From Phytohabitans rumicis (GTDB lineage: Bacteria; Actinomycetota; Actinomycetes; Mycobacteriales; Micromonosporaceae), in the NCBI RefSeq assembly GCF_011764445.1, contig NZ_BLPG01000001.1, positions 7,147,001 to 7,211,000 of the forward strand: a DNA stretch of 64,000 nt, read 5' to 3'. The position numbers were made by a program, and so were the translations under genes. The notes below the pieces were generated by a model, which ran no database searches, was not told the DNA's origin, and saw only the letters and a program-made list of their open reading frames with translations. Below, one piece after another: positions 9,608 through 25,946 of the stretch. Position 1 is the first letter of the stretch. Each line of letters starts with the position of its first letter.

Positions 9608-9669
9608 ATCGGGCTGGTGTCCGGCGGCGCTCGCGCGGCCCTCGTAGTCCCTTGCGCGTCGGCCCTCAG

Positions 9670-9848: not shown

Positions 9849-9887
9849 TGGACAACGGGCTCAGGACTGACGAAGGGGGAGGCCGTC

Positions 9888-10721
9888 ATGCAGGGTTGGG
9901 CAAGAGGCGTCGACACCACGCGTGGATCCGTGGCACGCCTGTATGACTACTATCTGGGCGGAACGCACAATTTCGAAGTCGATCGCGAAATCGCCGCGCA
10001 GATCCTTACGCTGCAACCTCTCGCCCCACTGATCGCCAGGGCCAACCGGGCCTGGCTCGGACGAGCGGTGAGCTACCTCGCCCAGCAGGGGATCCGTCAG
10101 TTTCTGGACATCGGATCAGGCATCCCAACGAAGGGCAACGTCCATGAGATTGCCCAGGCCGTTGCCGCAGACTCCCGGGTGCTCTATGTGGACACCGATC
10201 CGGTGGCCGTCATGCACGGCCACCAGATACTGGACGGCAACGACCTCGCCGACGCCGTCCAAGGCGACCTCCGGGACCCCGGCGAGCTACTCCACCGGAT
10301 AGACACGGACGACGCTCTGTCCTCGATCATCGACCTGAGCATGCCGACGGCTATCATCCTCGCCTCGGTGGTCCAGTTCGTACAGGACGATACAGCGGCC
10401 GCCGCGGCGGTGCGGGCGGTGCGCGAACGCATGGCGCCTGGTAGCTACCTGGCCATGTCTCACCCGACACCTGAAGTCGGTGGTAGCGCTGCCAGCGCTG
10501 CAGAGGGCGCGAAGGAATACCGCGAGCGGACCGACTCCGGCTTCCGGCTCCGGCAGCCCGACGAAATCCTTGGGTACTTCGATGGGTTCACGCTCGTGCC
10601 GCCTGGGCTGGTGTGGGTGCCCGAATGGCGTCCCGATCACACGGACACGGATCTAGGCCCCTTTGTCGATCACCCATCTCGCTCCGGCATCGTGGCTGGC
10701 GTCGGATACAAGGATCTATAG
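9888..10721 (+). CDS. SAM-dependent methyltransferase, DUF574 family (second copy)
   Basis: 277 residues from ATG 9888, with GGGGGAGG just upstream. Same family as 6352-7149: SVARLYDYYLGGTHNFEVDR, then the SAM motif FLDIGSGIPTKGNVHEIAQ and VLYVDTDPVAVMHG. Overall identity to the first copy is modest, so this is an older paralogue and not a recent duplicate. It stands alone, following the IS5 remnant. Substrate unknown. Confidence 0.88.
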   Translation: MQGWARGVDTTRGSVARLYDYYLGGTHNFEVDREIAAQILTLQPLAPLIARANRAWLGRAVSYLAQQGIRQFLDIGSGIPTKGNVHEIAQAVAADSRVLYVDTDPVAVMHGHQILDGNDLADAVQGDLRDPGELLHRIDTDDALSSIIDLSMPTAIILASVVQFVQDDTAAAAAVRAVRERMAPGSYLAMSHPTPEVGGSAASAAEGAKEYRERTDSGFRLRQPDEILGYFDGFTLVPPGLVWVPEWRPDHTDTDLGPFVDHPSRSGIVAGVGYKDL

Positions 10722-10847
10722 ACCGCCAGGGCAACGGGTTTGGAACTGAAGAGGGCCACGCCACTGCGTAGAGCGGCTCGTCGATCGCGCCCACCGTGCC
10801 GTCCGGGCGCCAGTGCGGGACCGTCAACTGCTGTGGCCAGTTCCCCG

Positions 10848-11284
10848 TCAGCAATCACAAACGCGGGCAACAGCCTCGCCGACCCCCCAGAGTCGCTCCA
10901 CGATGGTCCCCCACCACCTCGGCAGCCTCCACCGGGCTGTAACCGCGACGTAGCAAGGTCAAGATGCGGTTGCGGGTCTTGGCCGGCAGCGGCCCTTTGG
11001 GGTCGGCATACACCGCGGTGCGGCGGCGACGCGCGGGCCGGCTTCGGCGGCGTGTTCGGGTCCGGTCGCGGACCACTTGGGCGCATGACCACCCGGGCGG
11101 CACGCAGCCACCGCCGCACCGTCGACTCGACGTCGAGCGCCACGCCAACGTGGCGGGTAGTGGCGCCGCCGCGGTAGAGCTCGACGGCCTGGTCCTGCGA
11201 CGCAATGGGGGCGGTCGGGTCCGACCGGCGCTGGCGCGGGGTGGAGGCGGGCCGGGCTGGACGGCGTTGGGTAGCGCGGGGCAT
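10848..11284 (-). pseudogene. HTH protein gene broken by two frameshifts
   Basis: The minus-strand ATG at 11284 has an excellent ribosome-binding site (GGAGGATCCGA). It encodes a basic N-terminus and a helix-turn-helix-like segment (QDQAVELYRGGATTRHVGVA, then ALDVESTVRRWLRAARVV). The reading then moves to a second frame (AVYADPKGPLPAKTRNRILT, LLRRGYSPVEAAEVV) and to a third (TIVERLWGVGEAVARVCDC) before TGA at 10848. The combined product would be about 145 residues with two HTH-like units. Both shifts are of the insertion type, unlike the others in this window, so real decay is likely. The 410 bases between it and the IS110 gene hold no gene. Confidence 0.5.
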
Positions 11285-11694
11285 TCGGATCCTCCTGCAA
11301 ACCTTCTCGTCCAACGTAAACCGCGTTCGGCTGCGCTCTCATCGCACCGGACCCTATTGCGGTGCGACGGACCAGCCTGGTGGCCTCCGTGCGGGGTGGC
11401 GATGGGTCCGCCTCTGTGAGTAACATGTGCGGCATCCCGATGCTCCCCACCTTTGTGGGGGTGGCTCATCGGCGGCAGTCCTGTCGGGATGACTGGCCGC
11501 TTGGTCCCTGCCATCGCAGGGTTTGCGCGGGTCATTCGCGCCCTGTGTCCATGCTTGCCCTTGGTTTGCCCTGTGTCCGGACGTCGGCGAGATCGTTGGT
11601 CGGCCTCGCGTCACCGAGCGACTGCGGTTTCGTCGACACAGGCCGGGCGCCCGCGTCCCTGATGGCAGGTATTCGACCGAGAGGGCCACCACCT

Positions 11695-12947
11695 ATGGAA
11701 CGGGCGCCAAGGTTTGTAGCCGGGATCGACTGGTCTCACGGCCTGAACGACGTCGCGGTCATCGACCAGGGTGGTTCGACCATCGCGCACGCGCGTTTCG
11801 CCGCCACGCCTGCAGGCGTGCGGGAGCTATGCGCGCTGCTGGCCGGCCTGCGGGCCAGCCACACCCACAGCCGCCGGCATGTGCCGGTCGCGATCGAGAC
11901 GTGTGAGGGCCTATTGGTACATGCACTACGCGAGAAGGGACAGCAGGTTTACCAGATTCCGCCGAATGTCGTGGCGGCGTACCGGCGGCGCGTGTCCCCG
12001 GCTCCGCGGAAATCGGACCGGTCCGACGCGGAGTTGCTTGCGCTGATCCTGCGTGAGGGTGGGGGTGGCTGCGTCCGCTGCCCGATGTCAGCTCTGCTGC
12101 TGCGTCGATCCGCATCCTGGCCCAGGCTCAACTGCGTGCCCAGGTTGCCCGCGAACGCGTGCAGGCCAGGCTGCGCGCGCTGCTGTGCCAGGCGCACCCG
12201 GCGGCGGTCGACGTATGGGCCGGGCTTGACTACGGTCTGCGGCGCCGGGAGGCGCGGGCAGTGCTGGCCGCCGGACCCACTGCCGCGACCGCGCAGCGGC
12301 TGACCCCGTATCGCCTCTCGAAGATCCTCGCGGCGGCCGGCCGGACCCGTCTGATCGACGCCGAGGCGTACCGGTTGGCTGAGGCGTTCGCAGTTCCCGT
12401 GCTGCGGCTTCCGGCGCCTGTCGAGCAGGCCATGGCCGTCGAGGTACGCACCGTGCTGGACCTGTTCGAGCAAGCCTGCCGGGCCAGCGACCACCTCACT
12501 ACCCAGCTGACTGACGCGTTCCTCGACCATGGCACGGCTAAGATCTACACCTCTCTTCCCGGGTGCGGGCTCCTGACCGGCGCCAGACTCCTTGCCGAGA
12601 TCGGCGATGACCCCGCACGATTCGCCACCTCGAAAGGGCTGCGGGCATACGCCGGCGTCGCACCACTGACCTGGGAAAGCGGCTCCAGCCGCCTGGTCAC
12701 CCATCGGCGGATCTGCGACCGCAGACTCAAGCGAACGGCCATCTTGTGGGCCTTCACGTCGCTGACCCGCTCCCCAGGATGCCGGACGTTGTACGACCGA
12801 CGGCGCACAGCCGGCGACACCTACGCCGGCGCCCTTCGCCGCGTCGCCGGACGCCTGCTCAGCTGCCTGCACCACTGTCTGGCCACAGGCCAGCAATACG
12901 ACGAGGCAGCCGCGTTCTCAACGTCCACTGTGGTTCCTGGCGACTGA
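11695..12947 (+). CDS. IS110-family transposase, frameshifted at 12061
   Basis: From ATG 11695 the DEDD catalytic domain is clear: VAGIDWSHGLNDVAVID (first Asp), VAIETCEG (Glu) and KSDRSDAELLALIL (Asp pair). The frame breaks in the G run at 12061-12065. One added G continues it as WLRPLPDVSSAAASIRILAQ, through the C-terminal Tnp_20 domain with the invariant serine region (LPGCGLLTGARLLAEIGD, GLRAYAGVAPLTWESGSSR), to TGA 12947. About 417 residues, the usual size. IS110 enzymes insert DNA guided by a bridge RNA encoded in the non-coding end of the element, with no target duplication. Confidence 0.85.
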
Positions 12948-13041
12948 ATGCGGGTTGAAGGCCGGCCGGTACGCCTGAGTCAATCCCGAGCCTCGAGCTC
13001 CAACGTGGGAGCGGTGCCCGGCCGGCCCTCCATCCGCATTC
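12946..13041 (+). other. Large imperfect hairpin after the IS110 gene
   Basis: GAATGCGG (12946-12953) pairs with CCGCATTC (13034-13041), and inside it GGCCGGCC at 12960-12967 pairs with GGCCGGCC at 13020-13027. The gene stop lies in the left arm. This may be the non-coding end of the IS110 element, where bridge RNAs are encoded in part of the family, or simply a transcription terminator. The remaining 13042-13309 shows no gene. Confidence 0.35.
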
Positions 13042-13309
13042 AGCACGCTGTGACCCGGATCCACGCGCACCTGGTGACCGTGGCCGGCGCCGCCTCGTGA
13101 CCGGGCACGCCACCTGCACCGGCCACGGGTGGTGGACAGCGAGTCCGGCAGGGACCGCGAAGAGCCGGGCAACAGCCGGGCCGGTACATGGGATGCGCCC
13201 TGTCACGCGTCGCCCGCCAACTGCGGGCCCGGCAAACAGCCGGTCACCCGAACTGGTGAACCCGCCCGGCCGATGGATGCGCCGGTAACCGGCCAGGTAC
13301 CGTCCGCGA

Positions 13310-13972
13310 ATGGATCACCTGTTCACGACCGGCACCAGCGTGATCGGCCTGGCCAACGCGGCGATGATGTGGCCCATGCTCACGCTGCGCGTGGCGGCAA
13401 GTAGGTGGATCATCGGGCCGTTGCTCCTGCTCACCGCAGCGACGGCGGGTCTCTTCGCCGCCACGATCGTCTACCGCGACTTGTGGACCATGTTCCCAGC
13501 TGCGGCGCTCATGCTCATGATCGCGGTTCACTGGGACAACCGCCTCAGCGCCCGGCGCGGATGGACCGGCGGGCGGCTCGGCCTGCACCTCGCGGGCCGG
13601 CGGATCCGGCGCGGCAAGGTCCGCTTCATTACGTCGTCCGGCCGCAGGATGCACACGCTGGATGAGATCCGGGCGGAGTACGCGCAGACCATCCTCGACA
13701 ACGCTGCGCACGATCAGGACCTGGACCAGCTACTCAACGAGACCGCAGACGACATCGAGGCGCTGCTGCGACAGCCGGACGACGACGGCACGCCCAGGTC
13801 GTTGGACGCCATCACGGTGGCCTCATTCGCCAACCGTGTCCTCGACCAGTTCAGCGACCCCGACCGGCGACCACCAGCTGCCCCGTATCGCGGCTACTCC
13901 CGAGACATGCTCACGATCGCCGCGCTGTGCCGGCTCGGTGGCCGGCTGCCCACGGTCGTTCCCCGGACCTAA
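13310..13972 (+). CDS. Hypothetical protein with two membrane helices
   Basis: 220 residues from ATG 13310. Two hydrophobic helices lie near the N-terminus (about residues 34-52, WIIGPLLLLTAATAGLFAA, and 56-72, DLWTMFPAAALMLMIAV). A soluble acidic domain with coiled-coil character follows (TILDNAAHDQDLDQLLNETA). The C-terminus ends LCRLGGRLPTVVPRT. No family recognised. It stands alone between the IS110 element and the imuA-like gene. Confidence 0.5.
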   Translation: MDHLFTTGTSVIGLANAAMMWPMLTLRVAASRWIIGPLLLLTAATAGLFAATIVYRDLWTMFPAAALMLMIAVHWDNRLSARRGWTGGRLGLHLAGRRIRRGKVRFITSSGRRMHTLDEIRAEYAQTILDNAAHDQDLDQLLNETADDIEALLRQPDDDGTPRSLDAITVASFANRVLDQFSDPDRRPPAAPYRGYSRDMLTIAALCRLGGRLPTVVPRT

Positions 13973-14095
13973 TCGGGAATCTCGGTCTACGGTGCCTGCC
14001 GCCACCCTGCTTGACGGAGGTACCCATGGCATCGCGTGCCCCCACCCCAACACGACCGTCGGCCTGGTGAAGATGCGCCTGTTCCCCCTAACGAG

Positions 14096-14111
14096 TCGAA
14101 CGAGTGTTCGA
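14096..14111 (+). promoter_or_regulatory. LexA (SOS) box
   Basis: TCGAACGAGTGTTCGA is a perfect actinobacterial/Bacillus-type SOS box (TCGAAC-N4-GTTCGA). It ends six bases before the proposed GTG start of the imuA-like gene. LexA bound here would cover the promoter and block transcription until DNA damage activates RecA. Confidence 0.85.
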
Positions 14112-14117
14112 TACCGT

Positions 14118-14933
14118 GTGGAGGTGGCACCGCAACGACTTGGACTTACACCCCTCCCGGGCGGGGCGACGGCGTGGCCCGGTCGCGTCGGCGATCCAGC
14201 GGAGGTTGAACAGGTCCTCGCCGGCGTCACCACCCGGGCGGCCCAGCGTGCGGCCACCGCTGCTGTGCTGCGGCCGGTCGAGCAGGCCGACGACCTAAAC
14301 ACCGACAAACGCCGACATCATTTGCTGCCCGTCCACCCGTCCCTCAAGCCGCTGTTCCCTGCGGGCGGCCCTCGGCACGGCTCGGTCGTGGTCGCCGCCG
14401 GGACGACGTCGCTCATCCTCGCCTTGCTGGCCACCCCGACTGCGGCCGGCCGATACGCCGCTGTGGTGAACATGCCGCGGCTCGGCGCCCTTGCGGCCGA
14501 CGAGTACGGGGTACGCCTTGAGCGGCTGGCGCTGGTGCCGGACCCGGGCCCGAACTGGGCAGCGATCACCGCGATCCTGCTCGATGGCCTCGCCATGGTG
14601 GTGACCGGCGTCGACGGCGAGGTGAACGCCGAGACCGCGCAGCGGCTGGCCGCGCGAGCTCGCCGTAGCGGCGCCGTCCTCGTCCCCGCTGGGCCGGCAG
14701 TTGTGTGGCCCGGCGCCGACGTGGTCCTGGTCGCTGATCCGCCCGCGTGGGAGGGCCTCGGCGCAGGCCGTGGCCGGTTACGCCGCGCCGTGATGACCGT
14801 GACTTCTACCGGCCGCGGCGCAGGGGCCCGCTCCCGCGAGCTGGTGGTGCCGATCCCGCTACCCGATCCCGCCGACATGGCGCCGCGCCGGGCCGCGCGG
14901 GACGAGACAGGTCCGGTGGCGCTAAGCGCGTAA
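14118..14933 (+). CDS. ImuA-like RecA-fold protein, SOS-regulated
   Basis: About 271 residues if started at GTG 14118, directly after the LexA box; starts further up (ATG 14073) would put the operator inside the gene. The protein resembles actinobacterial ImuA-type RecA-fold proteins: LLPVHPSLKPLFPAGGPRHG, then SVVVAAGTTSLILALLA (Walker A replaced by AAGTTS), YAAVVNMPRLGALAADEYGV and LDGLAMVVTGVDG. ImuA works with ImuB and DnaE2 in error-prone lesion bypass. Neither partner lies next to it; they must be elsewhere or absent. A ribosome-binding site with a 14-codon ORF (GGAGG, ATG 14025) lies upstream and its role is unclear. Start position is uncertain. Confidence 0.7.
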   Translation: MEVAPQRLGLTPLPGGATAWPGRVGDPAEVEQVLAGVTTRAAQRAATAAVLRPVEQADDLNTDKRRHHLLPVHPSLKPLFPAGGPRHGSVVVAAGTTSLILALLATPTAAGRYAAVVNMPRLGALAADEYGVRLERLALVPDPGPNWAAITAILLDGLAMVVTGVDGEVNAETAQRLAARARRSGAVLVPAGPAVVWPGADVVLVADPPAWEGLGAGRGRLRRAVMTVTSTGRGAGARSRELVVPIPLPDPADMAPRRAARDETGPVALSA

Positions 14934-15031: not shown

Positions 15032-15075
15032 GTCTACTGGTGGACTGCACCTATTCCGACCGTGCGGTATTCCTT
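15032..15075 (+). repeat. 43-44 bp direct repeat R, copy 1
   Basis: Begins TCTACTGGTGGACTGCACCT, then TATTCCGACCGTGCGGTATT and CCTT. It matches copies 2 (17967) and 3 (25004), with a handful of substitutions and no gaps. Two small inverted repeats occur inside (GGTG-N5-CACC and ACCG-TG-CGGT), and TATTCC occurs twice 16 bases apart. It lies before the 40-residue membrane ORF and the STAND gene, outside coding sequence. Confidence 0.85.
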
Positions 15076-15144
15076 CCTGGGACCGAACGTGCGCGGGCCC
15101 GACCACGGCTGGTCAGGCCCGCAGCAGTGGAGGGTGAGTATGGA

Positions 15145-15267
15145 TCAGGGCATTAGATCTAGCGCCCAACTGAGCAGTGCCCTGACGGCGCCCGCGGCCG
15201 CGCCGGTGATGGCGGCCAGGGTGATCTTCTTGCGCCAGGTGCGCTTCTCGTCGTGTTCGCCGTTCAT
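15145..15267 (-). CDS. Small membrane protein (40 aa)
   Basis: Minus-strand ATG 15267 follows GGGAGCGC. The peptide has a charged first third (MNGEHDEKRTWRKK) and one membrane-spanning segment (ITLAAITGAAAGAVRALLSW) ending DLMP. It is divergent from the STAND gene and lies between repeat copy 1 and that gene. Such short single-helix proteins next to STAND or toxin genes may be membrane effectors or antidotes; here this is only a suggestion. Confidence 0.5.
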   Translation of the reverse strand: MNGEHDEKRTWRKKITLAAITGAAAGAVRALLSWALDLMP

Positions 15268-15493
15268 GTTGCGCTCCCGGTTCCGTTGGCGGAGCGGGAG
15301 GGTCCGGCCGGTCTCCCTAGATGACCGTTCGAGCAGACCCGGGGTGTACGGGGTCCGGCATCGGGTTGGGAGGAAGCCGAACGATCGGGTCAAGCACCCA
15401 GTTGGGTGACCTGCGCAAACCGCGAACTTGTCGTGGTGCCTAGGCTGGGCTTCTCAGGGTTCGATCGATCTCGCCGAACGGGCAGGAGTAGGC

Positions 15494-17914
15494 ATGCGCG
15501 CTGATCAAGAACCAGCAGATGGCAGTCGCCCCCTCGACCCTGGCAGGTTGCACACGCTTCCTGAGTTGAAGGCAGGATTGAAGCGGCTGCGTGGGGCTCG
15601 CTCATACGCTGCGTTAGACCGGGCGACGAGCGGAGCATTGCCGAAGTCGACGATCAGCAACCTGCTCAGCGGCGGCACCGTGCCAACACGGAACAGGATG
15701 GTGACCTTCCTGACGGCCTGCGGCCTCGACGAGGAATCGCGGACGCCCTGGCTGGCGGCGTGGGAGCGGGTGGCCACCGCCCATCTACGGCGCCCGGCGG
15801 GGGCCGTGCGGATACGGGAGGCGCGCGCGCGATTGCTCGGGGTGCACGATTCTATCCAGGCCGATGCGGCAACCAGGGAACTACCGGTGTATGTGCCGCG
15901 CGACCTGGATCCGGATCTGCGGACCGCTATTACCGCTGCAGCCGAGATGGGCGGGTTCGTCCTGCTGGTTGGCGGCTCATCGGTCGGGAAGAGTCGGGCG
16001 CTGTACGAGGCCGTGCAGGCGGCGCTGCCGGAGTGGTGGTTGATTCACCCCGAGGATGTCGCAGCTATCCGGGCCTTCGCGGCGTGCCCTTCGCCAAGAA
16101 CGGTGGTCTGGCTGGACGAATTACAGCGACTTCTCAGCTTGGAGAACCGACTGACAGCCGGATTAGCCCGCGAGCTGATCCGTGCAGGCGCCGTGTTGGT
16201 AGCCACGCTGTGGCCGCACGAGTACCACGAGCGGAGCGCCACGCGAATCCCGGGTATGCCGGACCTGAACGCCGGTGACCGAGAGCTGCTCGACATCGCT
16301 GACCTGATTGATGTCCCGGATCGGTTCAGCGCATCCGAGCGGCGCCGCGCCGAGGCCCTGTCCGGCATCGACTCGCGGATTAGAGTAGCCCTCGACAGCG
16401 AGGACGGCGGATTCACGCAGGTCCTGGCGGCCGGTCCGGACCTTGTCCGACGGTGGGAGCATGCCCACGATCCGTACGGCAAGGCGGTGTTGACTGCGGC
16501 TCTAGACGCCCGCCGTGTCGGTGTTCAAACGCCGCTGACACGAACCTTGCTTGTGGCAGCGGCAGCGGCTTACCTGATGCCGGCAGACCAGGCCGCCGCC
16601 CCACCTGACTGGGCCCATCAGGCGCTGTCCTACGCCACCGCCAAACTGCGGGGCGCTACCGCCGCCCTAACACCAGTCTCTAATGAAATTGGTCGTCCAA
16701 CTGGTTACGTCGTGGCGGACTTTCTGTACCAACATGCTCGCCAAGTGCGCCGTGAGGTGCCTCTACCCGAGCTGGCCTGGCAGGCGTTGGTCGAGCACCA
16801 CCAAGACCGAGATTTCGACGAGTTGGTCGCCGGGGCTGCCCGGCGTGGCCGATCTGGCCACCTTGAGGCCCTCTATCGACGCGGAGCGGAAACCGGCAAC
16901 CGAGACGCGGCACGCCAACTGGTTGATCTCCTCGTGACGCAAGGGCGTGCCGACGAGGCTTCTGCGGTACTGATCCGACACGATGACCAGGTTGGAGACT
17001 GGATCACTGCGTTGAGCGTCGGCGATCCACTTCTCCAGCAGGGCCGCGTCGACGAAGCAATCAGAGTGCTCGGGCCATACCTTCTCGGCAACTACCGAGA
17101 TTCTGGGATCACATGGGGGACCAGGGAGGTAATCGACCGATTCGTAAAATACGGCTACGCCGACGAGGCCGCCGCCCTATTACGCCCTCACGCTGATGCG
17201 GGCAACCGAGATGCGTCTATAAGCCTTGCGCGGGTGCTTGGCGCATCGGGAAGAGTAGAGGAGCTGCGTCTCCGCGCTGATGCTGGCGACCAAACGGCCG
17301 CGCTTAGTTTGGTCGACCTCCTTGTGAGGATGGGCGACACGGATGGGCTCCGGCAGCGTGCCGACATGGGCGACCTCCACGCTGCAGGCAAGCTGGCCAG
17401 TCTATTCGTAGAGCAGCACAAACTCGGAGACGCTATCGCCGTGCTGCGCCAGGCCGCCGACGCGGGCGAGGGCGACGCCTCGCGCCGGCTCGCAGTCCTG
17501 CTCTTAAAGGAGGGAAACCTCGAAGAGTTACGCGAGCGTGCGAGCGCTGGTGATCAGCCCGCCACACGTCGACTCGCCGATCGACTTCGTGCGGAGCGCC
17601 GCTTCGAGGAAGCCATTGACGTGCTACGGCCGGCGGCCAACTCCGGTGATCGCCTCGCGGCAGACCAACTTGTCGATCTGTACATGGCACGAGGTGAGGT
17701 GGAGGACGCGATCGGTGTGCTGCGCCAGCACGCAGACGCGGGCTACGGCGATGCAGCGGTTCGGCTAGTCGCGCTGCTTGCCCGCGACGGACGCCTCGAC
17801 GATCTGCAGGCCGAGGTTAATGCAGGCACGTTCGGCGCTGCCGAGCAGCTTGCCGCAATTACACGTAGTTCAACGCGCGATAACGACGACGCAGCGGGTC
17901 GACTTAAGCTCTGA
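15494..17914 (+). CDS. HTH-STAND P-loop NTPase with TPR/Sel1-like repeats
   Basis: 806 residues from ATG 15494 (CAGGAG 6 bases upstream). Domain order: an XRE-like helix-turn-helix at about 20-100 (ALPKSTISNLLSGGTVPTRN), a P-loop NTPase with Walker A VGGSSVGKSRAL at about 159-170 and Walker B-like TVVWLDELQRLL, a helical region to about 450, then a long array of short alpha-alpha repeats to the end. The repeats recur as GNRDAARQLVDLL, DQTAALSLVDLLV, GDRLAADQLVDLYMARG. This is a STAND-type sensor in which the repeats bind the trigger. An HTH plus repeats is seen in actinomycete regulators and in some defence proteins. Repeat copies 1 and 2 flank it. Confidence 0.8.
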   Translation: MRADQEPADGSRPLDPGRLHTLPELKAGLKRLRGARSYAALDRATSGALPKSTISNLLSGGTVPTRNRMVTFLTACGLDEESRTPWLAAWERVATAHLRRPAGAVRIREARARLLGVHDSIQADAATRELPVYVPRDLDPDLRTAITAAAEMGGFVLLVGGSSVGKSRALYEAVQAALPEWWLIHPEDVAAIRAFAACPSPRTVVWLDELQRLLSLENRLTAGLARELIRAGAVLVATLWPHEYHERSATRIPGMPDLNAGDRELLDIADLIDVPDRFSASERRRAEALSGIDSRIRVALDSEDGGFTQVLAAGPDLVRRWEHAHDPYGKAVLTAALDARRVGVQTPLTRTLLVAAAAAYLMPADQAAAPPDWAHQALSYATAKLRGATAALTPVSNEIGRPTGYVVADFLYQHARQVRREVPLPELAWQALVEHHQDRDFDELVAGAARRGRSGHLEALYRRGAETGNRDAARQLVDLLVTQGRADEASAVLIRHDDQVGDWITALSVGDPLLQQGRVDEAIRVLGPYLLGNYRDSGITWGTREVIDRFVKYGYADEAAALLRPHADAGNRDASISLARVLGASGRVEELRLRADAGDQTAALSLVDLLVRMGDTDGLRQRADMGDLHAAGKLASLFVEQHKLGDAIAVLRQAADAGEGDASRRLAVLLLKEGNLEELRERASAGDQPATRRLADRLRAERRFEEAIDVLRPAANSGDRLAADQLVDLYMARGEVEDAIGVLRQHADAGYGDAAVRLVALLARDGRLDDLQAEVNAGTFGAAEQLAAITRSSTRDNDDAAGRLKL

Positions 17915-17966
17915 GTTCATATCAAAGGGGGCCCAAGCGAGAGGGGTGGTTGGCGCGTTTTACTGG

Positions 17967-18010
17967 TTTTACTGGTGGAGTGCACCTATTCCAACCATGC
18001 GGTATTCCTC
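17967..18010 (+). repeat. 43-44 bp direct repeat R, copy 2
   Basis: TTTTACTGGTGGAGTGCACC, then TATTCCAACCATGCGGTATT and CCTC. Preceded by an extra TTTTACTGG, so its first nine bases are doubled. It lies 52 bases after the STAND gene stop and 100 bases before the end of the convergent minus-strand membrane gene, exactly between the two modules. Confidence 0.85.
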
Positions 18011-18110
18011 GGAGCGGGCTTGGGCGGCCTCAGCGGTCTGTACCTTGGACTGGCTAGCCTGTCGGTCAACCACAACGTGTCGTGCCAGGTTGCGCACCAA
18101 GATGGTTCCT

Positions 18111-18584
18111 CTACCGCGTGGTCTTCAACGCAGCCCACAGCGCGTCGTCAAACGCTGCCTTCGCAGCCTCTCGCTCGGTTTGTTTCGACGTTCGGTGATC
18201 CTCCTGATCGCAGAGGTCAAGGTAGTCACGCGCCGCCTTGCTGGTTGCCGGCAAGAGAAGGTCGATCACCGCGAACACGGCTTCTGCTTTGCGGAACGCA
18301 TCACCCCGCGCCTCGGCTGCCTCACTCCACCGCTCTCGGTGTGCCTGGATAGATTCCTCGTTCCGGTTGCCCTCCGCGTTCGACAGCATGTGGTTCGCCA
18401 CATCGGCGCTGGACGCGGTACGCCAGAGGCGGTCGGCCGCCGTGCGAAACTCGATCGCAGCGTCGAGCTCCCGGTCGAGAACGCGCATGCTGCGCTCGTG
18501 GGCGTGGCGACGGCGGTCGCTTAGCCGGCTCGTAAGGCCAGCCCCGACGAGACCGACCACCACGCCAACCAGTGTCAACGCTCC
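18111..18584 (-). pseudogene. Membrane-anchored helical protein, C-terminal part cut by IS21 element
   Basis: Minus-strand reading from the IS edge (18584) to the stop at 18111: GALTLVGVVVGLVGAGLTSR finishes a transmembrane helix. A charged, mostly helical domain follows (ERSMRVLDRELDAAIEFRTA, EAVFAVIDLLLPATSKAARD). The first residues lie beyond the insertion at 20771-20816. Together they give about 173 residues: a membrane anchor plus a cytoplasmic helical region with possible coiled coil. The gene was probably the second component of the module bounded by repeat copies 2 and 3. Function unknown. Confidence 0.6.
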
Positions 18585-18636
18585 GAAAATTTTGACCCTC
18601 TAGCGCTCCGGGAAAATTGACCCCCGTGCGGTTTGG

Positions 18637-19452
18637 TCAGTCGCGGCTGGCGCGGTTTTCCTTGGCCAGGAGTTCGCGGCGTTGGCGGGTGCGGTAGGAG
18701 TCGCCGGTGAGGGTGAGGACCTCGGCGTGGTGGACGAGTCGGTCGATCATGGCTGCGGCGACGACGTCGTCGGAGAAGGTCTCGCCCCAGCGGCCGAAGG
18801 GCAGGTTCGAGGTGACCATGATCGAGCCTTGTTCGTAGCGGGAGGCGACGAGTTGGAAGAACAGGTTGGCGGCGTCCTGGTCGAACGGGATGTAGCCGAC
18901 CTCATCGATGATGATCAGCTTGTAGCGGCGGATCTTCTTCAGCTCGGCCTCGAGGCGGTTGCCGCGGTGCGCCTCGGCGAGGCGGGTGATCCAGTTGCTG
19001 GCGGTGTCGAACAGCACCGAGTAGCCGGCCTGGGTGGCCTTGACGCCGAGTCCGATGGCCAGGTGGGTCTTGCCCAACCCGGGCGGCCCCAACAGGATCA
19101 CGTTCTCGGCTTTGGCGACGAAGGTGCTGGTGGCCAGGTGCGCGAGCAGGTCCCGGCGCAGTGAGGGCAGGTGGTCGAGGTTGAAGTCCTCCAGGGTCTT
19201 CACGGCCGGGAAGTGGGCGGTGCGGATGCGCATGACGGTGCCTTTGGACTCCCGGTCGGCGACCTGGCGTTGCAGCAGCGCGGCCAGGTATTCCTCGTGC
19301 GACCAGTTCTCGTCGCGGGCCTGGGCGGCGAGCTCTTCCCAGAACGCGCCGATGGTGGGCGTCTTGAGCACCCGGGTCAGGTAGGCGATCATCGACGGCA
19401 TCCCGTCCTTCGGCGGGGTGGCCGGGGGTTTGGCCTTGATGGCTGTGCTCAC
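18637..19452 (-). CDS. istB: IS21-family helper ATPase IstB (element A)
   Basis: 271 residues. An N-terminal domain (SMIAYLTRVLKTPTIGAFW) precedes an AAA+ ATPase: Walker A LLGPPGLGKTHLAIGLG, Walker B KLIIIDEVGYIPFDQDAANL, sensor MVTSNLPFGRWGE and arginine finger region AAMIDRLVHHAEVL. IstB assembles on target DNA, bends it and recruits the IstA transposase. The start overlaps the istA stop as ATGA (19449-19452). It ends about 50 bases from the IS edge. Confidence 0.92.
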   Translation of the reverse strand: MSTAIKAKPPATPPKDGMPSMIAYLTRVLKTPTIGAFWEELAAQARDENWSHEEYLAALLQRQVADRESKGTVMRIRTAHFPAVKTLEDFNLDHLPSLRRDLLAHLATSTFVAKAENVILLGPPGLGKTHLAIGLGVKATQAGYSVLFDTASNWITRLAEAHRGNRLEAELKKIRRYKLIIIDEVGYIPFDQDAANLFFQLVASRYEQGSIMVTSNLPFGRWGETFSDDVVAAAMIDRLVHHAEVLTLTGDSYRTRQRRELLAKENRASRD

Positions 19453-20717
19453 GCGTCACTCGCTTCCGTTGCTGGTGTGGTGGATGGGTTGAAGTCGACG
19501 CCGAACAGGGCGTCGTAGTCCGGCAGCGCCCGCAGCACGACGGCGTGGCCGTCGGCGTGGCGGCGGGTGGCTGCCTGACGGCTTTGCCGTTGCAGCGCCA
19601 GGGCTTGGCGCATCTGGGCGGCCAGGGCCCGGTGGGCCGGGTCGGTGACCAGGTCCTGCTTGGCCCACGAGCGCTGGTGCCGGGCGATCGTCTGCCCGTC
19701 GCAGACCACGCTCACCTCACCAGCGGTGGCGGTGACGTCGACGAGCTTGCCGATCATGCGTGGGTCGACCGAGTAGTCCACTGTGTCCACTCGCAGGTGG
19801 TAGTCGCGGCCGAGCCGGGTGCGGTAGGTCAGCCCGACCTGCGGGGCCAGCGGCGGCAGCGCCAGCATGGACCGGTAGTCGACCTCCAGCAGGTCCACCG
19901 GGCGGCCCTGGATCGACCGGACAGTGCGGGTGTTGGCCTTGGTCAGCCACTGGGCCAACTGGGCGTTGAAATCGTGCGGGGAGGCGAAGCTGCGCCCGGG
20001 CAGGAACGAGGTCTCCAGATAGCCGTTGGCCCGCTCCACCATGCCCTTGAACTCCGGATCCCGCGGCGGAGCCAACCTGATCTGCGTGGCCAGGGTGCCG
20101 GCGAACGCCGCCGCCGGCGTGCTGACCCGGCCGGTGCCGCCGATCGCCGACTCCCGGTCCCACAACAGCGTCCGGGTCACCCGGCCGACCCCACAGATCA
20201 GCGTCCACATCCCGGCCAGGATGTCCCCGGCCTGCCGGGACGGGATCATCGTCGCGGTCATGAACCGGGAGAACGCCAACGTCATCACCAGCACCGGCAG
20301 CACCCGCTCCTGCCCGGCGGCCACCGGGATCCGCGGCTCCGGGAACCACAGATCGCACTGCGTCAGCTGCCCCGGCTGGTAGATCACCCGATCCACCGGA
20401 TCGATCCCCACGTACTCCGGCCGGATCACCGCCAACCGCTTCCGCAACGGCGCCATCGAGTGCGGCCACCCGATCCGCTCCGCGATCACCGGCCCCGGCA
20501 TCTTCGGCCACTCGGCCAACAGCACCCGGATCCGCGGCTCATACGCATCCACAATCGACCCCCGCGAGACCCGCTCGTATGACGGCGGCCGGTCGCAGGA
20601 CAACGCCGCCCGGACCGTGTTCCGAGCCACCCCCAACCGCCGAGCGATCTCCTTGATAGGCACACCCTCCGCCCGATGCAGACGGCGGATCTCAGCCCAG
20701 TCCTCCACCTTGATCAC
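19449..20717 (-). CDS. istA: IS21-family transposase IstA (element A)
   Basis: 422 residues. N-terminal HTH (IKEIARRLGVARNTVRAAL), then a DDE integrase core with QLTQCDLWFPEPRIPV (first Asp), TLLWDRESAIGG (second Asp) and APPRDPEFKGMVERANGYLE (Glu). The C-terminal beta-barrel region includes YHLRVDTVDYSVDPRMIGK. Catalyses strand transfer of the element with IstB. Intact; no frameshift. Confidence 0.92.
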   Translation of the reverse strand: MIKVEDWAEIRRLHRAEGVPIKEIARRLGVARNTVRAALSCDRPPSYERVSRGSIVDAYEPRIRVLLAEWPKMPGPVIAERIGWPHSMAPLRKRLAVIRPEYVGIDPVDRVIYQPGQLTQCDLWFPEPRIPVAAGQERVLPVLVMTLAFSRFMTATMIPSRQAGDILAGMWTLICGVGRVTRTLLWDRESAIGGTGRVSTPAAAFAGTLATQIRLAPPRDPEFKGMVERANGYLETSFLPGRSFASPHDFNAQLAQWLTKANTRTVRSIQGRPVDLLEVDYRSMLALPPLAPQVGLTYRTRLGRDYHLRVDTVDYSVDPRMIGKLVDVTATAGEVSVVCDGQTIARHQRSWAKQDLVTDPAHRALAAQMRQALALQRQSRQAATRRHADGHAVVLRALPDYDALFGVDFNPSTTPATEASDA

Positions 20718-20770
20718 CCTCCAAGGCTCAGAGGGGTCAATTTTCAGAGATCACTGGGGGGTCATTTTTC

Positions 20771-20816
20771 AGAAAGCGGCGACAACCAGTCCGACCAGCC
20801 AGGAAGCACCACCCAC
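20771..20816 (-). pseudogene. N-terminal fragment of the IS-interrupted membrane protein gene
   Basis: Minus-strand GTG 20816 encodes VGGASWLVGLVVAAF before the IS21 A edge. The reading continues in frame with GALTLVGVVVGL at 18584, forming one long hydrophobic helix. A leaderless start is likely: TACGAT (-10) lies six bases upstream and CCGACA (-35) 18 bases before it. IS21 B sits in that -35 area. Confidence 0.45.
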
Positions 20817-21004
20817 GACGCGATCGTAGGTGAAAGTCTGACCAGATGTCGGCGATCTTGTAATTCCTCCATCTGACTGGGTTTCGATCACGTAATTCCC
20901 CCACCGTTCACGTAATTCCCCCAGGGGAGCACGTGCGTGGCGTCGGGGTCTGGTCCTCGCAGGAGATCAGTCTGCCTCCGTTCCCGGGTGGGGTGGAGGC
21001 GCCG

Positions 21005-22597
21005 ATGGCGAGGAGAAGCTTCTACGTGATCGACATAGTCGAGATCTTGGTCCACTGGCATGCGGGTCGGTCGCAGCACGAGCTGGCGGCCAGCCTCGCT
21101 GTGGATCGCAAGACGATCCGTAAGTACACGGCGCCGGCGATCGCGGCCGGGGTGGTGCCGGGTGGGCCGGCGCGATCGCAGGATGAGTGGGCGCAGCTGG
21201 TGCGGGGCTGGTTCCCGGAGTTGGTGGATACCCGGTTGCGGCAGGTGACCTGGCCGGCGATCGAGGTGCACCGGGACTATGTCGCCGGGCAACTTCAGGC
21301 GGGCGTGACCGCGGCGACGATCCATCAGCGGCTGCGTGACGAGCACGGGCTGGAGGCGTCGGTGGCCTCGTTTCGTCGGTGGGTGCGGGCGAACCTGCCG
21401 GAGGAGACCCGGCGGGCGCTGGTGCGGGTGCTGGGCGAGACCCCGCCTGCGGGGCATGAGGCGCAGGTCGACTACGGCCGGTTGGGGATGTGGACCGACC
21501 CGGGCACCGGTAAGCGGGTCACGGTGTGGGCGTTCGTGATGGTGCTGGCGCACTCGAGGCACATGTTCGTGCGTCCGGTGCTGCGGATGGACCAACGCGC
21601 GTGGACCGAGTCGCATGTGGAGGCGTTCCGGTTTTTCGGCGGTGTCCCGGAACGGATCGTGCCGGACAACCTGGCCACCGGGGTGGAGCGCGCGGATCTG
21701 TATGACCCGAAGCTGAACCGCTCGTATGCGGAGCTGGCCGAGCACTACGGCACCCTGATCGACCCGGCTCGGGCCCGAAAGCCCCGTGATAAGCCGAGGG
21801 TGGAACGGCCTATGCCGTATGTCCGCGACTCGCTGTGGCGTGGCCGGCAGTTCGACACGGTCGGGCAGATGCAGGCCGCGGCGGTGGACTGGTGCCTGAA
21901 GGTGGCCGGTCAGCGGGCCAGCCGACCCTTGGACGGGGCCGCGCCGGTGGCCGTGTTTCAAGCGGTCGAGGCGTCGGCGCTGGGGCCGTTGCCGGCGCGC
22001 CCGTTCGTGTTGGCGACGTGGTCGACCGGCAAGGTCGGCCCGGACATCCACGTCAAGGTCGGTAAGGCGTTGTACTCGGTGCCGTGGCGGCTGATCGGGC
22101 AGCGCCTGGATGCCCGCGAAACGTGGACCACCGTCCAGATGTTCCACAATGGACAATTGGTGGCCACGCACGGCCGTGCCAGCAAGGGCAAGCGCACCGA
22201 CACCTCGCACTACCCGCCGGAGAAGATCGCGTTCGCGATGCGGACCCCGACCTGGTGCCGGCGCCGAGCCGCCGAGATCGGACCCGCCTGCACCACGGTC
22301 ATCGCCTGCCTGCTGGAGGTCGGGGCGCTCTACCGGCTGCGCTCCGCCCAAGGTGTGCTCGGCCTAGCCGACAAGCACGGCCCCGGACGACTGGAAGCGG
22401 CGTGCGGCAAGGCGGTCGTGGCCGGTGACCCGTCCTACCGCACGATCAAAGGCATCCTGGCCGCCGGTGTGGAGACCGACCCGCCACCGCCACCAACCGG
22501 GGACGGCGGCGCCGCCGCGCACCTGCACGGCCCGGCCGCGCTGTTCGACAACGTCTACCCCCTGCCGGCCCGTGACGGCGACGAGGGAGCGGCCTGA
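21005..22597 (+). CDS. istA: IS21-family transposase IstA (element B)
   Basis: 530 residues from ATG 21005, with GGAGG nearby. HTH at the start (GRSQHELAASLAVDRKTIRK), then the DDE core: GHEAQVDYGRLGMWTDPGTG (Asp), GGVPERIVPDNLATGV (Asp) and ARKPRDKPRVERPMPYVRDS (Glu). Longer than IstA of element A and clearly a different IS21 subgroup. Stop overlaps the next ORF as ATGA-type (22597). Confidence 0.92.
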   Translation: MARRSFYVIDIVEILVHWHAGRSQHELAASLAVDRKTIRKYTAPAIAAGVVPGGPARSQDEWAQLVRGWFPELVDTRLRQVTWPAIEVHRDYVAGQLQAGVTAATIHQRLRDEHGLEASVASFRRWVRANLPEETRRALVRVLGETPPAGHEAQVDYGRLGMWTDPGTGKRVTVWAFVMVLAHSRHMFVRPVLRMDQRAWTESHVEAFRFFGGVPERIVPDNLATGVERADLYDPKLNRSYAELAEHYGTLIDPARARKPRDKPRVERPMPYVRDSLWRGRQFDTVGQMQAAAVDWCLKVAGQRASRPLDGAAPVAVFQAVEASALGPLPARPFVLATWSTGKVGPDIHVKVGKALYSVPWRLIGQRLDARETWTTVQMFHNGQLVATHGRASKGKRTDTSHYPPEKIAFAMRTPTWCRRRAAEIGPACTTVIACLLEVGALYRLRSAQGVLGLADKHGPGRLEAACGKAVVAGDPSYRTIKGILAAGVETDPPPPPTGDGGAAAHLHGPAALFDNVYPLPARDGDEGAA

Positions 22598-22788
22598 TGA
22601 GCTCTGATCTGGCCGCCTACCCGATCAGCCAACCCGGCACCGGCATCGACAGCCGGTTCACCATCGGCCTCGCCCTCGACGTCGCCGACGTCCTGGCCCA
22701 ACACGGCTACCCACCGATCACCACCGGCACCGATCTGCTGCGCGTGCAGCAGGCCCTGTTCACCCTCATCTACCAGGAGAACCGTTGA
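22597..22788 (+). CDS. Small accessory ORF between istA and istB (63 aa)
   Basis: ATG 22597 overlaps the istA stop, and the stop overlaps the TTG start of istB (TTGA). The peptide MSSDLAAYPISQPGTGIDS continues with a helical segment ALDVADVLAQHGYPPITTG and LLRVQQALFTLIYQENR. Codon use fits its neighbours, so it is probably translated. Its coupling position suggests a regulator of the IstA:IstB ratio or a small subunit; no family recognised. Confidence 0.65.
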   Translation: MSSDLAAYPISQPGTGIDSRFTIGLALDVADVLAQHGYPPITTGTDLLRVQQALFTLIYQENR

Positions 22789-23561
22789 CCGTCATCGACA
22801 CCGCCCTGCACGCCAGCCTCCGCGCGCTGAAACTGTCCGGCATGCTGGAAACCCTCGACGCCCGCCTGGTCCAAGCCCAAGCCGGCGAACTCGGGCACCT
22901 GGACTTCCTGCAGGTCCTCTGCCAAGACGAGATCACCCGCCGGGAGACCATGTCCATGCACCGCCGGCTGCGCCGCGCCCACTTCGACGAACAGGCCACC
23001 CTGGAAGGCTTCGACTTCGCAGCCAGCCCCAAGCTGCCCGCCGCGCAGATCCGCGACCTCGCGGCCCTCCGCTGGCTCCACAGCGGAGAATCAGTCCTCC
23101 TGCACGGCCCCGTCGGTATCGGGAAAACCCATGTCGCACAAGCCCTCGGACACCTGGCCATCCGCCAAGGCGCCGAGGTCCGCTTCTACAAGACCAGCCG
23201 CGTCCTGGCCCACCTCGCCGACGGCCACGCCGACCGCACCTGGCCCAAACGCCTCGGCGAACTCGCCCGACCCCACGTGCTGATCCTCGACGACTTCGCG
23301 ATGCGCGAGTACACCCCACAGCAAGCCGACGACCTCTACGAGCTCATCAGCGAACGAGCCCAAGCCGGCCGGTCGCTGATCACGACCTCCAACCGCAACC
23401 CGCCGGACTGGTATCCACTGTTCCCGAACCCCGTCGTCGCCGAGTCCCTACTCGACCGGCTCATCAACACCAGCCACCAGGTCTTCATGAACGGCCCCAG
23501 CTACCGGCCCAACAAACGCCCCGGACGCGCCGTCCCCCAGTCCACCACGAACGCGAAGTAA
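22785..23561 (+). CDS. istB: IS21-family helper ATPase IstB (element B)
   Basis: 258 residues from TTG 22785 (AGGAGA at 22775-22780). AAA+ ATPase with Walker A LLHGPVGIGKTHVAQALG, Walker B HVLILDDFAMREYTPQQADD, sensor LITTSNRNPPDWYPLF and arginine region ESLLDRLINTSHQV. Partner of the upstream IstA. Confidence 0.92.
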   Translation: MTVIDTALHASLRALKLSGMLETLDARLVQAQAGELGHLDFLQVLCQDEITRRETMSMHRRLRRAHFDEQATLEGFDFAASPKLPAAQIRDLAALRWLHSGESVLLHGPVGIGKTHVAQALGHLAIRQGAEVRFYKTSRVLAHLADGHADRTWPKRLGELARPHVLILDDFAMREYTPQQADDLYELISERAQAGRSLITTSNRNPPDWYPLFPNPVVAESLLDRLINTSHQVFMNGPSYRPNKRPGRAVPQSTTNAK

Positions 23562-23845
23562 CATCAGCTACGGGCCAGCCCTGGAGGAATTGCGTGACCG
23601 CAACCCCGGGGGAATTACTCGATCGCCCACAACCAGAGACGGTCGCATGCTCCAAGCGCGGTATCCGGAGAGTCTTGGATCGATCTCGCAGCCCTGGACG
23701 TCGACCCGAACGTGCCGTCCGAGAGACGTCATCGGAGACCTGTTTGTCGCCTGGCTGACATATGCGCCTCTTCGTCCAGGGCATGACGCTACCGTGGCCG
23801 TGGCCGTGTTGCGTGCCGGCCAAGTGGTCATCGGGAGGGCCGCAG

Positions 23846-24943
23846 TTGAGAAAGCGGCAGCGCTTACTGTTTGAACTGACAGCATCAATATTGAGCGGTG
23901 CGATCTTGGCGGCTGCAGCGGCAGTGGCGGCAACCTTGTCCCGTGCACGATGGCTGGAGGCGCCTGTCCCGCTGTGGTCTGTCGTTCTCGGCTCGACCAC
24001 TGCCGTAGTTCTCGCTATCTTCCTCATTCGGCTACGAGAACAGCGACCCAAGCGCATCCTCATCATGATACCGGCATTTGCTCAGAAACACTGGTTTGCC
24101 GAATTTCTCCAACGCGGTGTTCAGGCTCTCGAAAGCCAAGCTTACGACGCCGTCCTAAAACTTCCGCTTCACGATTTCAGCGGACAGGGGCAATTGCTGC
24201 AGTTGACCGCTGTTGCTCGCCGTCCCCGGGACTTCGTCGGTGCCTTTATCATAGCAGCCGAGCCCGACAGCATTAGTGGCGAGCTGCGTAGGCTTTGCTC
24301 CCGGGCCGGTTTTCCGGTAATCTTTGTCGACGTCATGCCTTTCGCTCGACCAGAAGATCTTCCTGCATGGTCCTGCTACGTCGGATCGGACCAGAATGAA
24401 ATCGGCGTAGCAGCAGCCCGCTATGTCGCAGACCAGATGGCCCAGCGCCAAAAAAGGCGACCGCGCGTGTTAGTGATCGGCAGCGCGGCGCAGGCAGAGA
24501 GGCAGAGGACGTTTGTCGCAGCGCTCAAGGACAAGCTTCCAGGTGCGGTAGTTGAGGTCAACGACCATGGAGCGTTCGTTCGAGACAGGTCACGCGAGAT
24601 AGCTGGCAGGTACTTGCGCAGCGCCCGACAGGAAGGGCGTCTGCTTGATGCGATCTTCTGTACGAACGACGAGATGGCTCTAGGTGCGCTCGATGCGCTA
24701 CACGAGGATGCCGTTTCAGAGGGCGTGCACTCCGATCTTATTGTGGTCGGCGTGGATGGGACTGATGAGGCGATGTCCGTCATCCGATCTGGCGGGACGC
24801 AATTCCGGGCGACCGTAGTCCAGGATTCCAGGCGGATTGCCGAGACTGCTACTGCCGTCCTCCTGCGGGCTCTCGAAGGCGAACGGCCCCAACCACGAAT
24901 CATCGTGCCCGTGAGTATCTATCCTCCCGGCCACAACGCATGA
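23846..24943 (+). CDS. Membrane-anchored periplasmic-binding-protein-fold sensor
   Basis: 365 residues from TTG 23846 (GGGAGG 7 bases upstream; in-frame upstream starts are unlikely). Two membrane helices near the N-terminus (about 8-28, LFELTASILSGAILAAAAAV, and 41-60, VPLWSVVLGSTTAVVLAIFL) are followed by a type I sugar-binding/LacI-core domain: RILIMIPAFAQKHWFAEFLQ, PVIFVDVMPFARPEDLPAW, DAIFCTNDEMALGALDAL, SDLIVVGVDGTDEAM. There is no HTH and no lipobox. With two helices the binding domain would face the cytoplasm, unlike transport-linked binding proteins. It reads divergently from the IS-broken gene in the same module. Confidence 0.7.
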   Translation: MRKRQRLLFELTASILSGAILAAAAAVAATLSRARWLEAPVPLWSVVLGSTTAVVLAIFLIRLREQRPKRILIMIPAFAQKHWFAEFLQRGVQALESQAYDAVLKLPLHDFSGQGQLLQLTAVARRPRDFVGAFIIAAEPDSISGELRRLCSRAGFPVIFVDVMPFARPEDLPAWSCYVGSDQNEIGVAAARYVADQMAQRQKRRPRVLVIGSAAQAERQRTFVAALKDKLPGAVVEVNDHGAFVRDRSREIAGRYLRSARQEGRLLDAIFCTNDEMALGALDALHEDAVSEGVHSDLIVVGVDGTDEAMSVIRSGGTQFRATVVQDSRRIAETATAVLLRALEGERPQPRIIVPVSIYPPGHNA

Positions 24944-25003
24944 CTGCGCATTCCGGCGAAATCCAGTGCTGCAAAGGCATTGACTCGATGAGGACCGCGC
25001 CGG

Positions 25004-25047
25004 TTTTTACTGGTGGAGTGCACCTATTTCGACCATGCGCTATTCCT
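25004..25047 (+). repeat. 43-44 bp direct repeat R, copy 3
   Basis: TTTTACTGGTGGAGTGCACC, then TATTTCGACCATGCGCTATT and CCTC. It lies 60 bases after the binding-protein-fold gene and overlaps the stop of a minus-strand C-terminal gene remnant. Same orientation as copies 1 and 2. Confidence 0.85.
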
Positions 25048-25259: not shown

Positions 25260-25751
25260 CTACGGACCCGTGGCCTGTCGGCGGCTCTTGGTTGGGGGTG
25301 GCTTGCCCTCCAGCTGCTGGACTTGGTCGAGCATCGTGAGGACGAGCTTGAGGTGGGGCTCGGACAGCTCGCGGGCTCGTAAGGCGAGAGTGCGGATGTT
25401 GGGATCGCTGAGGGCCTCTTGAACATCTCGGGCGGTACGCAGGCGTTGGAGTTCCTCGGTGACCTTGGCGGTGTCGCCGTCGCCCAGCAAGTAGCCGGGG
25501 GGCACGCCGAAGAAGTCGGCGAGGGCGGTGACGGCCTTGATCGTGGGGTTGTCTCGGACGCCGGTCCTGAGGTGATTGATGTACTGGGCGGTGATGTGCC
25601 CGCCGGCGGCCTCGACCGCGTCCGCGACCTCTTGGAGCGTGTAGGGCCCGCGGTCCGCGGGGTGGATCGTGCGGAACAGGTAGTTCAGCCGGTCGGCGAG
25701 GGTGTTGAGGGCGGGTTCGCCGTCGTTGGTCGCGGGCCCGGTTGTGGCCAT
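25260..25751 (-). CDS. EspR-like XRE-family transcriptional regulator
   Basis: 163 residues from ATG 25751 (AGGGAG upstream). The order of motifs matches mycobacterial EspR and relatives: LADRLNYLFRTIHPADRGPY, LQEVADAVEAAGGHITAQYI, NHLRTGVRDNPTIKAVTALA, DFFGVPPGYLL, then a dimerisation region (LRTARDVQEALSDPNIRTLA, LRARELSEPHLKLVLTMLDQ). These are XRE proteins that bind DNA as dimers of dimers and bridge distant sites. Two perfect palindromes upstream (25768 and 25849) are likely its operators, so it probably represses itself and the Tad operon starting at 25947. Confidence 0.8.
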   Translation of the reverse strand: MATTGPATNDGEPALNTLADRLNYLFRTIHPADRGPYTLQEVADAVEAAGGHITAQYINHLRTGVRDNPTIKAVTALADFFGVPPGYLLGDGDTAKVTEELQRLRTARDVQEALSDPNIRTLALRARELSEPHLKLVLTMLDQVQQLEGKPPPTKSRRQATGP

Positions 25752-25767
25752 GCCGGCACTCCCTACG

Positions 25768-25782
25768 TCTACTGCTAGTAGA
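25768..25782. promoter_or_regulatory. Operator O1 of the EspR-like regulator
   Basis: TCTACTGCTAGTAGA, a perfect 6-3-6 inverted repeat, 17 bases upstream of the regulator start. The surrounding TACG...TA is also shared with O2. Confidence 0.7.
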
Positions 25783-25809
25783 TAACCATATCTGATCTTG
25801 GATAGCTAG

Positions 25810-25839: not shown

Positions 25840-25848
25840 TCCCATACG

Positions 25849-25863
25849 TCTACTGGTAGTAGA
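25849..25863. promoter_or_regulatory. Operator O2 of the EspR-like regulator
   Basis: TCTACTGGTAGTAGA, the same perfect 6-3-6 palindrome as O1, 81 bases away (centre to centre), just downstream of the plus-strand promoter. The two sites could be bridged by the tetrameric regulator. Confidence 0.7.
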
Positions 25864-25946
25864 TAGGGGCGCGGCGCAGAGGCATCCGGTTGATTTCCGG
25901 TGGGCCTGCCGCGCGATCCGCACCTTGTGTGGCGGGAGGTTTGATC

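Follow-up and report, generated by a model that had tools for sequence, protein, structure and literature searches.

A direct repeat in Phytohabitans rumicis as the probable left end of actinobacterial mobile elements

Introduction

The mobility module of gamma-mobile-trio (GMT) islands consists of three genes, among them that of a recombinase, and the cargo of these islands varies. Integron gene cassettes are small modules in direct arrays; each has a single conserved site and none a recombinase of its own. In Tn554-related pairs of Actinobacteria, according to the available part of their description (Van Houdt et al. 2012, PMC3414803), a tyrosine recombinase of ~350 aa adjoins a partner of 611-828 aa on plasmids and chromosomes, and the long partners are classed as recombinases. 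SEs, as far as the accessible text on them goes, belong to Gammaproteobacteria, carry two recombinases together with tfp and srap, leave a 6-bp footprint and use few targets. RIT elements have three adjacent tyrosine recombinases.

Here we describe a repeat in P. rumicis that is, as judged from sequence comparison, most probably the left end (LE) of a group of mobile elements in soil actinobacteria; the window, that is, the whole stretch of 64,000 bp analysed (NZ_BLPG01000001.1, 7,147,001-7,211,000), would hold three stacked LEs of non-autonomous or decayed cassettes. Relatives of these cassettes carry an operon of one recombinase (PF00589), a small HTH protein and a long CxxC-rich protein. 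The Tn554-related pairs are alike in the sizes of the recombinase and the long partner and in their place on actinobacterial plasmids and chromosomes, and insertion without target duplication was also found here (three common bases in one case). In contrast to those pairs, the long protein has no detectable recombinase domain and the HTH gene lies between the two. The small protein is an HTH_26 protein, which may or may not correspond to the TnpC-type third protein of Tn554-related elements. The available text of PMC3414803 defines no element ends, arrays or recombinase-less cassettes. With SEs, in the part of their description at hand, our elements have in common that a short operon, which includes a tyrosine recombinase gene, occupies one end, that the two ends match imperfectly or are unlike, and that no target duplication arises; they differ in gene set (the operon lacks the set intA-tfp-intB-srap) and in their varied targets. 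A variable footprint was not seen in four copies, which may have a common donor. Three adjacent recombinases, as in RIT, were not found.

GMT islands resemble our elements in the three-gene mobility module, the recombinase and the varied cargo, but against GmtX, GmtY and GmtZ only a sub-threshold GmtZ match of the recombinase was obtained (14.5 bits, cut-off 600), and no NCBIfam model matched the long protein or the HTH protein. Integron cassettes are alike in their direct arrays of small single-site modules without a recombinase; here, in contrast, there is no attC-like fold, units are ~3-4 kb, arrays have 2-3 members and the two ends differ. Operons of this type may already have been noted by others. 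In the literature searched, mostly papers outside subscription, such LE/RE ends, recombinase-less cassettes and arrays were not found described, and the Tn554-related pairs and SEs came nearest. The circular element of PMC12169178, as far as the available text describes it, was set aside as unrelated.

Results

The window contains three direct copies of the repeat, all on the + strand (Table 1), with 2935 bp and 7038 bp between consecutive copies. The 39-bp cores are identical at 36, 36 and 35 of 39 positions in pairwise comparison. The initial annotation had reported three copies in one orientation from 15032, 17967 and 25004, and these are real, the starts including a few less conserved bases before the cores. 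A 17-base word (≤3 mismatches) occurs three times in the window; in 100 shuffles the mean was 0.17, the largest number 2, and none reached 3. The rough consensus is ACTGGYGGAGYR-nnn-TATTC-n(5-8)-TGCGSTATTC, in which two similar boxes, TGCACCTATTC and TGCGGTATTC, can be recognised. Single-strand foldback of the LE was not special (z-score -1.28). At the start of copy 2 (17960-17985), TTTTACTGG stands twice in tandem, as though insertion had duplicated part of the left end.

A genome-wide search, also proposed in the annotation, found the repeat not randomly scattered: in the 10,714,690 bases (three contigs) of the P. rumicis genome, a degenerate 27-mer with ≤3 mismatches matched exactly the three window copies, and neither the other strand nor a reversed-pattern control gave a match. 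A dispersed chromosomal repeat was thus ruled out, since the genome has three copies only, all in one 10-kb stretch. No tRNA gene was found near the copies, and a tRNA-type attachment site was rejected for that reason.

Table 1. Features of the repeat array in the window
Feature	Position	Strand	Evidence
Repeat copy 1 (LE 1)	15035..15073	+	sequence; among the R1 source copies
Module 1, ~40-aa membrane protein	15145..15267	-	sequence, hydrophobic stretch; divergent from 828-aa gene; kept beside homologues in 4 other genomes
Module 1, 828-aa protein	15428..17914	+	HTH-like N-terminus, P-loop, C-terminal TPR; Pfam TPR_19 1.1e-12
Repeat copy 2 (LE 2)	17970..18008	+	55 bp past stop of 828-aa gene
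Module 2, 155-aa membrane/helical ORF	18111..18578	-	sequence; 5' part abuts first IS21
IS21-type insertion 1 (istB, istA)	18593..20764	-	between imperfect inverted arms
IS21-type insertion 2, genes	20933..23561	+	sequence
Module 2, 393-aa protein	23762..24943	+	two N-terminal hydrophobic stretches; Peripla_BP_4, Pfam 6.7e-25
Repeat copy 3 (LE 3)	25008..25046	+	sequence match

The contents of the two intervals are as originally annotated: a small membrane ORF and an HTH gene in the first, a divergent pair and two IS21 gene pairs in the second. The 828-aa protein has an HTH-like start and a P-loop; the "STAND" in its label "HTH-STAND" was the annotator's own term, and Pfam gives only TPR. The start codon of this gene may be 15497 or another. 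Both IS21-type gene pairs (18637-19452 with 19449-20717, and 20933-22597 with 22785-23561) sit within the second repeat interval. The 155-aa ORF had no Pfam match. Module 2 is a membrane-anchored, binding-protein-like sensor with a partner. None of the three larger module proteins in the window matched a PADLOC model at E≤0.01, and downstream of copy 3 no element was recognised.

Module 1 is a conserved divergent pair. Homologues of the 828-aa protein were found in 127 of 354 Micromonosporaceae genomes (E≤1e-20), and the ~40-aa protein adjoins such a homologue in Actinoplanes subtropicus, G112, G196 and G138, with scores of 68-100 (13 of 30 loci could be scored); among the eight other loci with a score the maximum was 37, and the best random stretch apart from one self-match gave the same value. 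In G196 and G138 the repeat was not recognised beside the pair, as would be expected of cargo. No plasmid relatives of the module 1 DNA were found. The 393-aa sensor is rare compared with the module 1 family, with homologues in 4 of the 354 genomes, its own included (E≤1e-25), and no repeat was recognised near its three relatives.

We then searched the family for further copies. The degenerate pattern (≤3 mismatches) matched 6 of 354 genomes, four of them outside the genus. A match in G245, to the first half of the motif only, was set aside as chance, as was a locus with six mismatches (L087). A strict scan of a genome collection gave no match, a wider scan two species, and the pattern was absent from viral contigs. 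A sequence-only profile, R1, was built from eight copies: the three of the window and those of G002, A. subtropicus, Micromonospora sicca and G293, together with one of G112, which had been found among the homologues of the module 1 gene. On the 354 genomes R1 gave matches at E≤0.1 in 48 and at E≤0.001 in 20; of the latter, 14 lay outside the six source genomes, where ~0.35 would be expected from the E-value. A second profile, R2, was built from 33 copies. Apart from the copies of P. rumicis itself, 51 other loci yielded matches on one operon-bearing Rhodococcus plasmid, in G340 and in G245 (E=0.004). The match in G340 (E=0.008) adjoins a module 1 homologue.

Two groups of loci (L124-L127 and L129-L131) had one-sided homology. 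G088, G141, G138 and G090 have the repeat and its right side in common but unrelated left flanks, and the same holds for G301, G187 and G217, where the common part runs ~260 bp rightward of the repeat. In the first group the common stretch is ~12.1 kb long and 97-99% identical; in G088 ~1 kb is missing and 11.1 kb remain. It begins at AGCTGG, the repeat start, and at all four sites, which are unrelated, it closes with ...TTGCATCGGAAGCAACTCCGCTCGTAT; the final bases next to the right flank are identical in the four copies, for which a common donor is possible. For the G138 insertion site an uninterrupted counterpart is present in G088, another genus (96% identity over 600 bp), relative to which no base was deleted or duplicated. 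The one-sided homology, the constant termini and this empty site together indicate that the repeat is the left terminus of a mobile element. The right terminus (RE) differs from LE in sequence and is an inverted repeat, like TTGCATCnnATGCAA, with a short tail of ~12-18 bases. The bare RE pattern is weak, its 13 matches being near the 9 of a reversed control, and evidence for RE was taken only from matches at junctions. The left flank of the G002 copy is similar to a second G002 locus as far as 28 bp short of the repeat, but an adjoining right-hand match was not found at that locus and no element length could therefore be obtained.

Beside the RE of the 12.1-kb element lie three minus-strand genes, which encode a tyrosine recombinase (377 aa, PF00589 2.7e-20), an HTH_26 protein and a long protein of 763 aa with many CxxC pairs, zinc-ribbon-like. 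A by-eye reading of the C-terminal half of the long protein as a tyrosine recombinase was dropped, as Pfam, a PDB profile and hhalign gave no sign of such a domain. The eight ORFs of the element that were scanned included no conjugation or replication family. Homologues of the operon lie to the right of the repeat in 13 of the 20 newly found loci (L124-L143), on the minus strand in all 13; the four copies of the 12.1-kb element are among these, as are two short fragments (L129, L139). The operon was not found in any of the six profile-building loci, the window included; one of them lies on a contig of just 3.9 kb. In G097 and G092, overlapping self-similar matches ~126 bp apart, 50-1060 bp right of the repeat, mark an internal tandem repeat in the cargo. 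To the right of the G002 copy there are an HNH-type ORF and an HTH/ATPase gene, the latter followed by a large ORF (7354-8097 and 9080-13185 of locus L013), a neighbourhood that looks defence-like.

We also asked the question in reverse, starting from the recombinase. Homologues at E≤1e-40 were present in 43 of 354 genomes (49 places listed), and 33 of the 49 loci, reaching up to ~15 kb beyond the recombinase, were taken. All 33 match all three operon genes, in the order recombinase, HTH, long protein in 32; in the other (L238) the strongest HTH match is on the far side of the long gene. R1 matched 5 of the 33 loci and R2 matched 8. Seven R2 matches lie beyond the operon, all seven on the predicted strand, although two are weak (E ~0.1) and one is the 12.1-kb element again; the eighth, in a locus that is itself an R2 source (L254), is on the other side of the operon. 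Beyond the operon no repeat was recognised in 26 of the 33 loci. In 24 of the 25 loci without any R2 match the recombinase is ≤56% identical to the query, so that ends and enzyme may have co-diverged. The P. rumicis genome has only distant recombinase matches, 36-37% identical over about half the protein.

Stacked copies were found in other genomes as well. In G112 two direct repeat copies are separated by 3.9 kb. A homologue of the module 1 gene comes after each of them, and an RE (TTGCATCTGATGCAATAATTCCCGTTCT) stands immediately in front of the second copy; in G114 an RE-like sequence directly precedes the LE. In A. subtropicus the module 1 homologue has the repeat in front and a degenerate second copy behind (score 13; true copies 61-70), and in G340 a weak repeat (E=0.002) follows the module 1 homologue; both second copies sit where the window has copy 2.

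On plasmids, homologues of the long protein were found in 252 of 72,556 records, all at <60% identity and mostly in Streptomyces and Rhodococcus. Eight plasmid regions were examined, and each has recombinase, HTH and long protein in the same order; in several, annotation covers only part of the long gene, and its product is called hypothetical or an XRE regulator. R2 gave six matches in five of the eight loci, two of them partial, all beyond the operon on the opposite strand and on the predicted side. In Rhodococcus sp. 008 pR8C1 (NZ_CP015204.1; 14215-24059 of locus L262), the region that directly adjoins the recombinase operon on its far side encodes helicases, an AAA ATPase and a DNA methyltransferase; this cargo looks like a restriction or defence system.

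The near-identical Rhodococcus plasmids pDJL1 and pYLC1, the latter from the soil isolate Rhodococcus sp. YL-1, carry the operon at 95% identity, with the adjoining flank at 97%; pYLC1 has a second operon copy in the other orientation. pYLC1 carries one extra stretch of ~3.95 kb that is exactly absent in pDJL1, so that a module cleanly missing with one repeat left, which the initial annotation had proposed to look for, was found in a relative. The module starts with the repeat (ACTGGCGGATGTGCAGTATTCG...) and closes with ...TGTTGCATCTGTATCGAATAAAGGCACATT, a half-preserved RE. GAC, three bases, is common to both module junctions and the uninterrupted sequence. Five genes are annotated in the module, none of them a recombinase, in a gene table that may be incomplete. 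The repeat of the neighbouring element is kept in both plasmids, ~70 bp from the module.

Discussion

Comparison of the genomes establishes, at the level of sequence, the positions of LE and RE in the 12.1-kb element, the variety of its sites, a recombinase-less member and head-to-tail stacking, and likewise insertion without target duplication, with at most three common bases in the pYLC1 case. From this we infer that the elements move. Autonomous members would carry the operon of tyrosine recombinase, small HTH protein and ~760-aa CxxC-rich protein near the end opposite LE; LE and RE may be the substrates of the operon proteins, which would insert the element with little preference for a target; autonomous elements may move recombinase-less cassettes in trans, and insertion next to existing ends may give rise to arrays. 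By analogy, the mode of action would be that of Tn554, SEs and further tyrosine-recombinase elements whose insertion leaves no target duplication. Two cargo modules in the window would lie among three stacked LEs, and two IS21-type elements would have inserted there later. Several results speak against this reading: the operon was not found in the six profile-building loci, most recombinase loci had no recognised repeat beyond it, the module 1 pairs of G196 and G138 and the three relatives of the module 2 sensor likewise had none nearby, and the long protein has no detectable recombinase domain.

The suggestion that the repeat is a recombination site or cassette border agrees with what was found for the family as a whole, namely boundaries at the repeat, exact ends, the G138 empty site, the arrays and the pYLC1 module. 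It needs correction in that the repeat marks one particular end of an element, the one distant from the recombinase genes, and the other end differs. The window modules themselves may or may not be mobile: neither an RE nor the operon was recognised there, and six genomes of the genus gave no empty site, only short synteny matches that included an HTH gene and a relic. A tblastx comparison gave mostly composition noise and was set aside. The window array is most likely non-autonomous or decayed, since it has no close recombinase homologue and no recognised RE.

Regulatory sites of co-regulated modules (operators, promoters or terminators), bound for example by the HTH protein of module 1, would also account for a motif with two similar boxes that lies near genes, though outside them, and terminator-like hairpins were seen by eye downstream of the repeat in several loci. 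In relatives, however, the copies are the exact boundary of homology and of insertions, what adjoins them is unrelated in content, and the G293 copy overlaps the end of an ORF (by eye); we consider a regulatory function very unlikely. It is hardly credible that an integrative conjugative element with one attachment core accounts for the repeats as its attL/attR-type direct repeats. The M. sicca and G293 copies do lie, by eye, among GGDEF and other plasmid-like genes, but the copies have no tRNA gene near them, the two ends of the 12.1-kb element differ, the scan of eight of its ORFs was negative for conjugation and replication families, and the same motif was never seen at both ends.

A reading that we take seriously, while leaning against it, is that the window array is a fossil, in which remnants of older, larger elements were shaped into modules by recombination among ends and IS elements and not by cassette movement. 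The missing right ends and close recombinase homologue, the two IS21-type insertions and, in A. subtropicus, the degenerate second copy behind module 1 are in its favour, whereas module 1 preceded by the repeat recurs in A. subtropicus and twice in G112, and the window copies are close to each other. Such a history is compatible with the repeat as LE, as the later fate of the window array.

With the repeat as LE, an unexplained sequence becomes a boundary marker. Since LE is defined, and RE in part, searches of actinobacterial genomes can delimit the elements together with their cargo, and the Rhodococcus plasmid pair offers a direct bench system. We guess that the cargo serves in sensing or defence. 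A wider picture, which attracts us but which we stop just short of favouring, is an integron-like cassette economy in actinobacteria, in which autonomous elements with recombinase, HTH and long protein would mobilise in trans many recombinase-less cassettes that have a common ~40-bp LE, stack into arrays and spread sensor/NTPase modules, candidates for new defence systems, across orders.

Some minor features flank the array. The C-terminal part (14141-14933) of the ORF at 13662-14933 resembles genes elsewhere in the genus at 38-53% identity and is presumably a relic of an ImuA'-like gene. Further out, at 11362-12947, lies an IS110-type transposase split across two overlapping ORFs. On the other side, just upstream of the HTH gene at 25260-25751, two near-identical 24-bp direct repeats (25761-25784 and 25842-25865), each with a palindrome-like TCTACTnnTAGTAGA, are possible autoregulatory operators.
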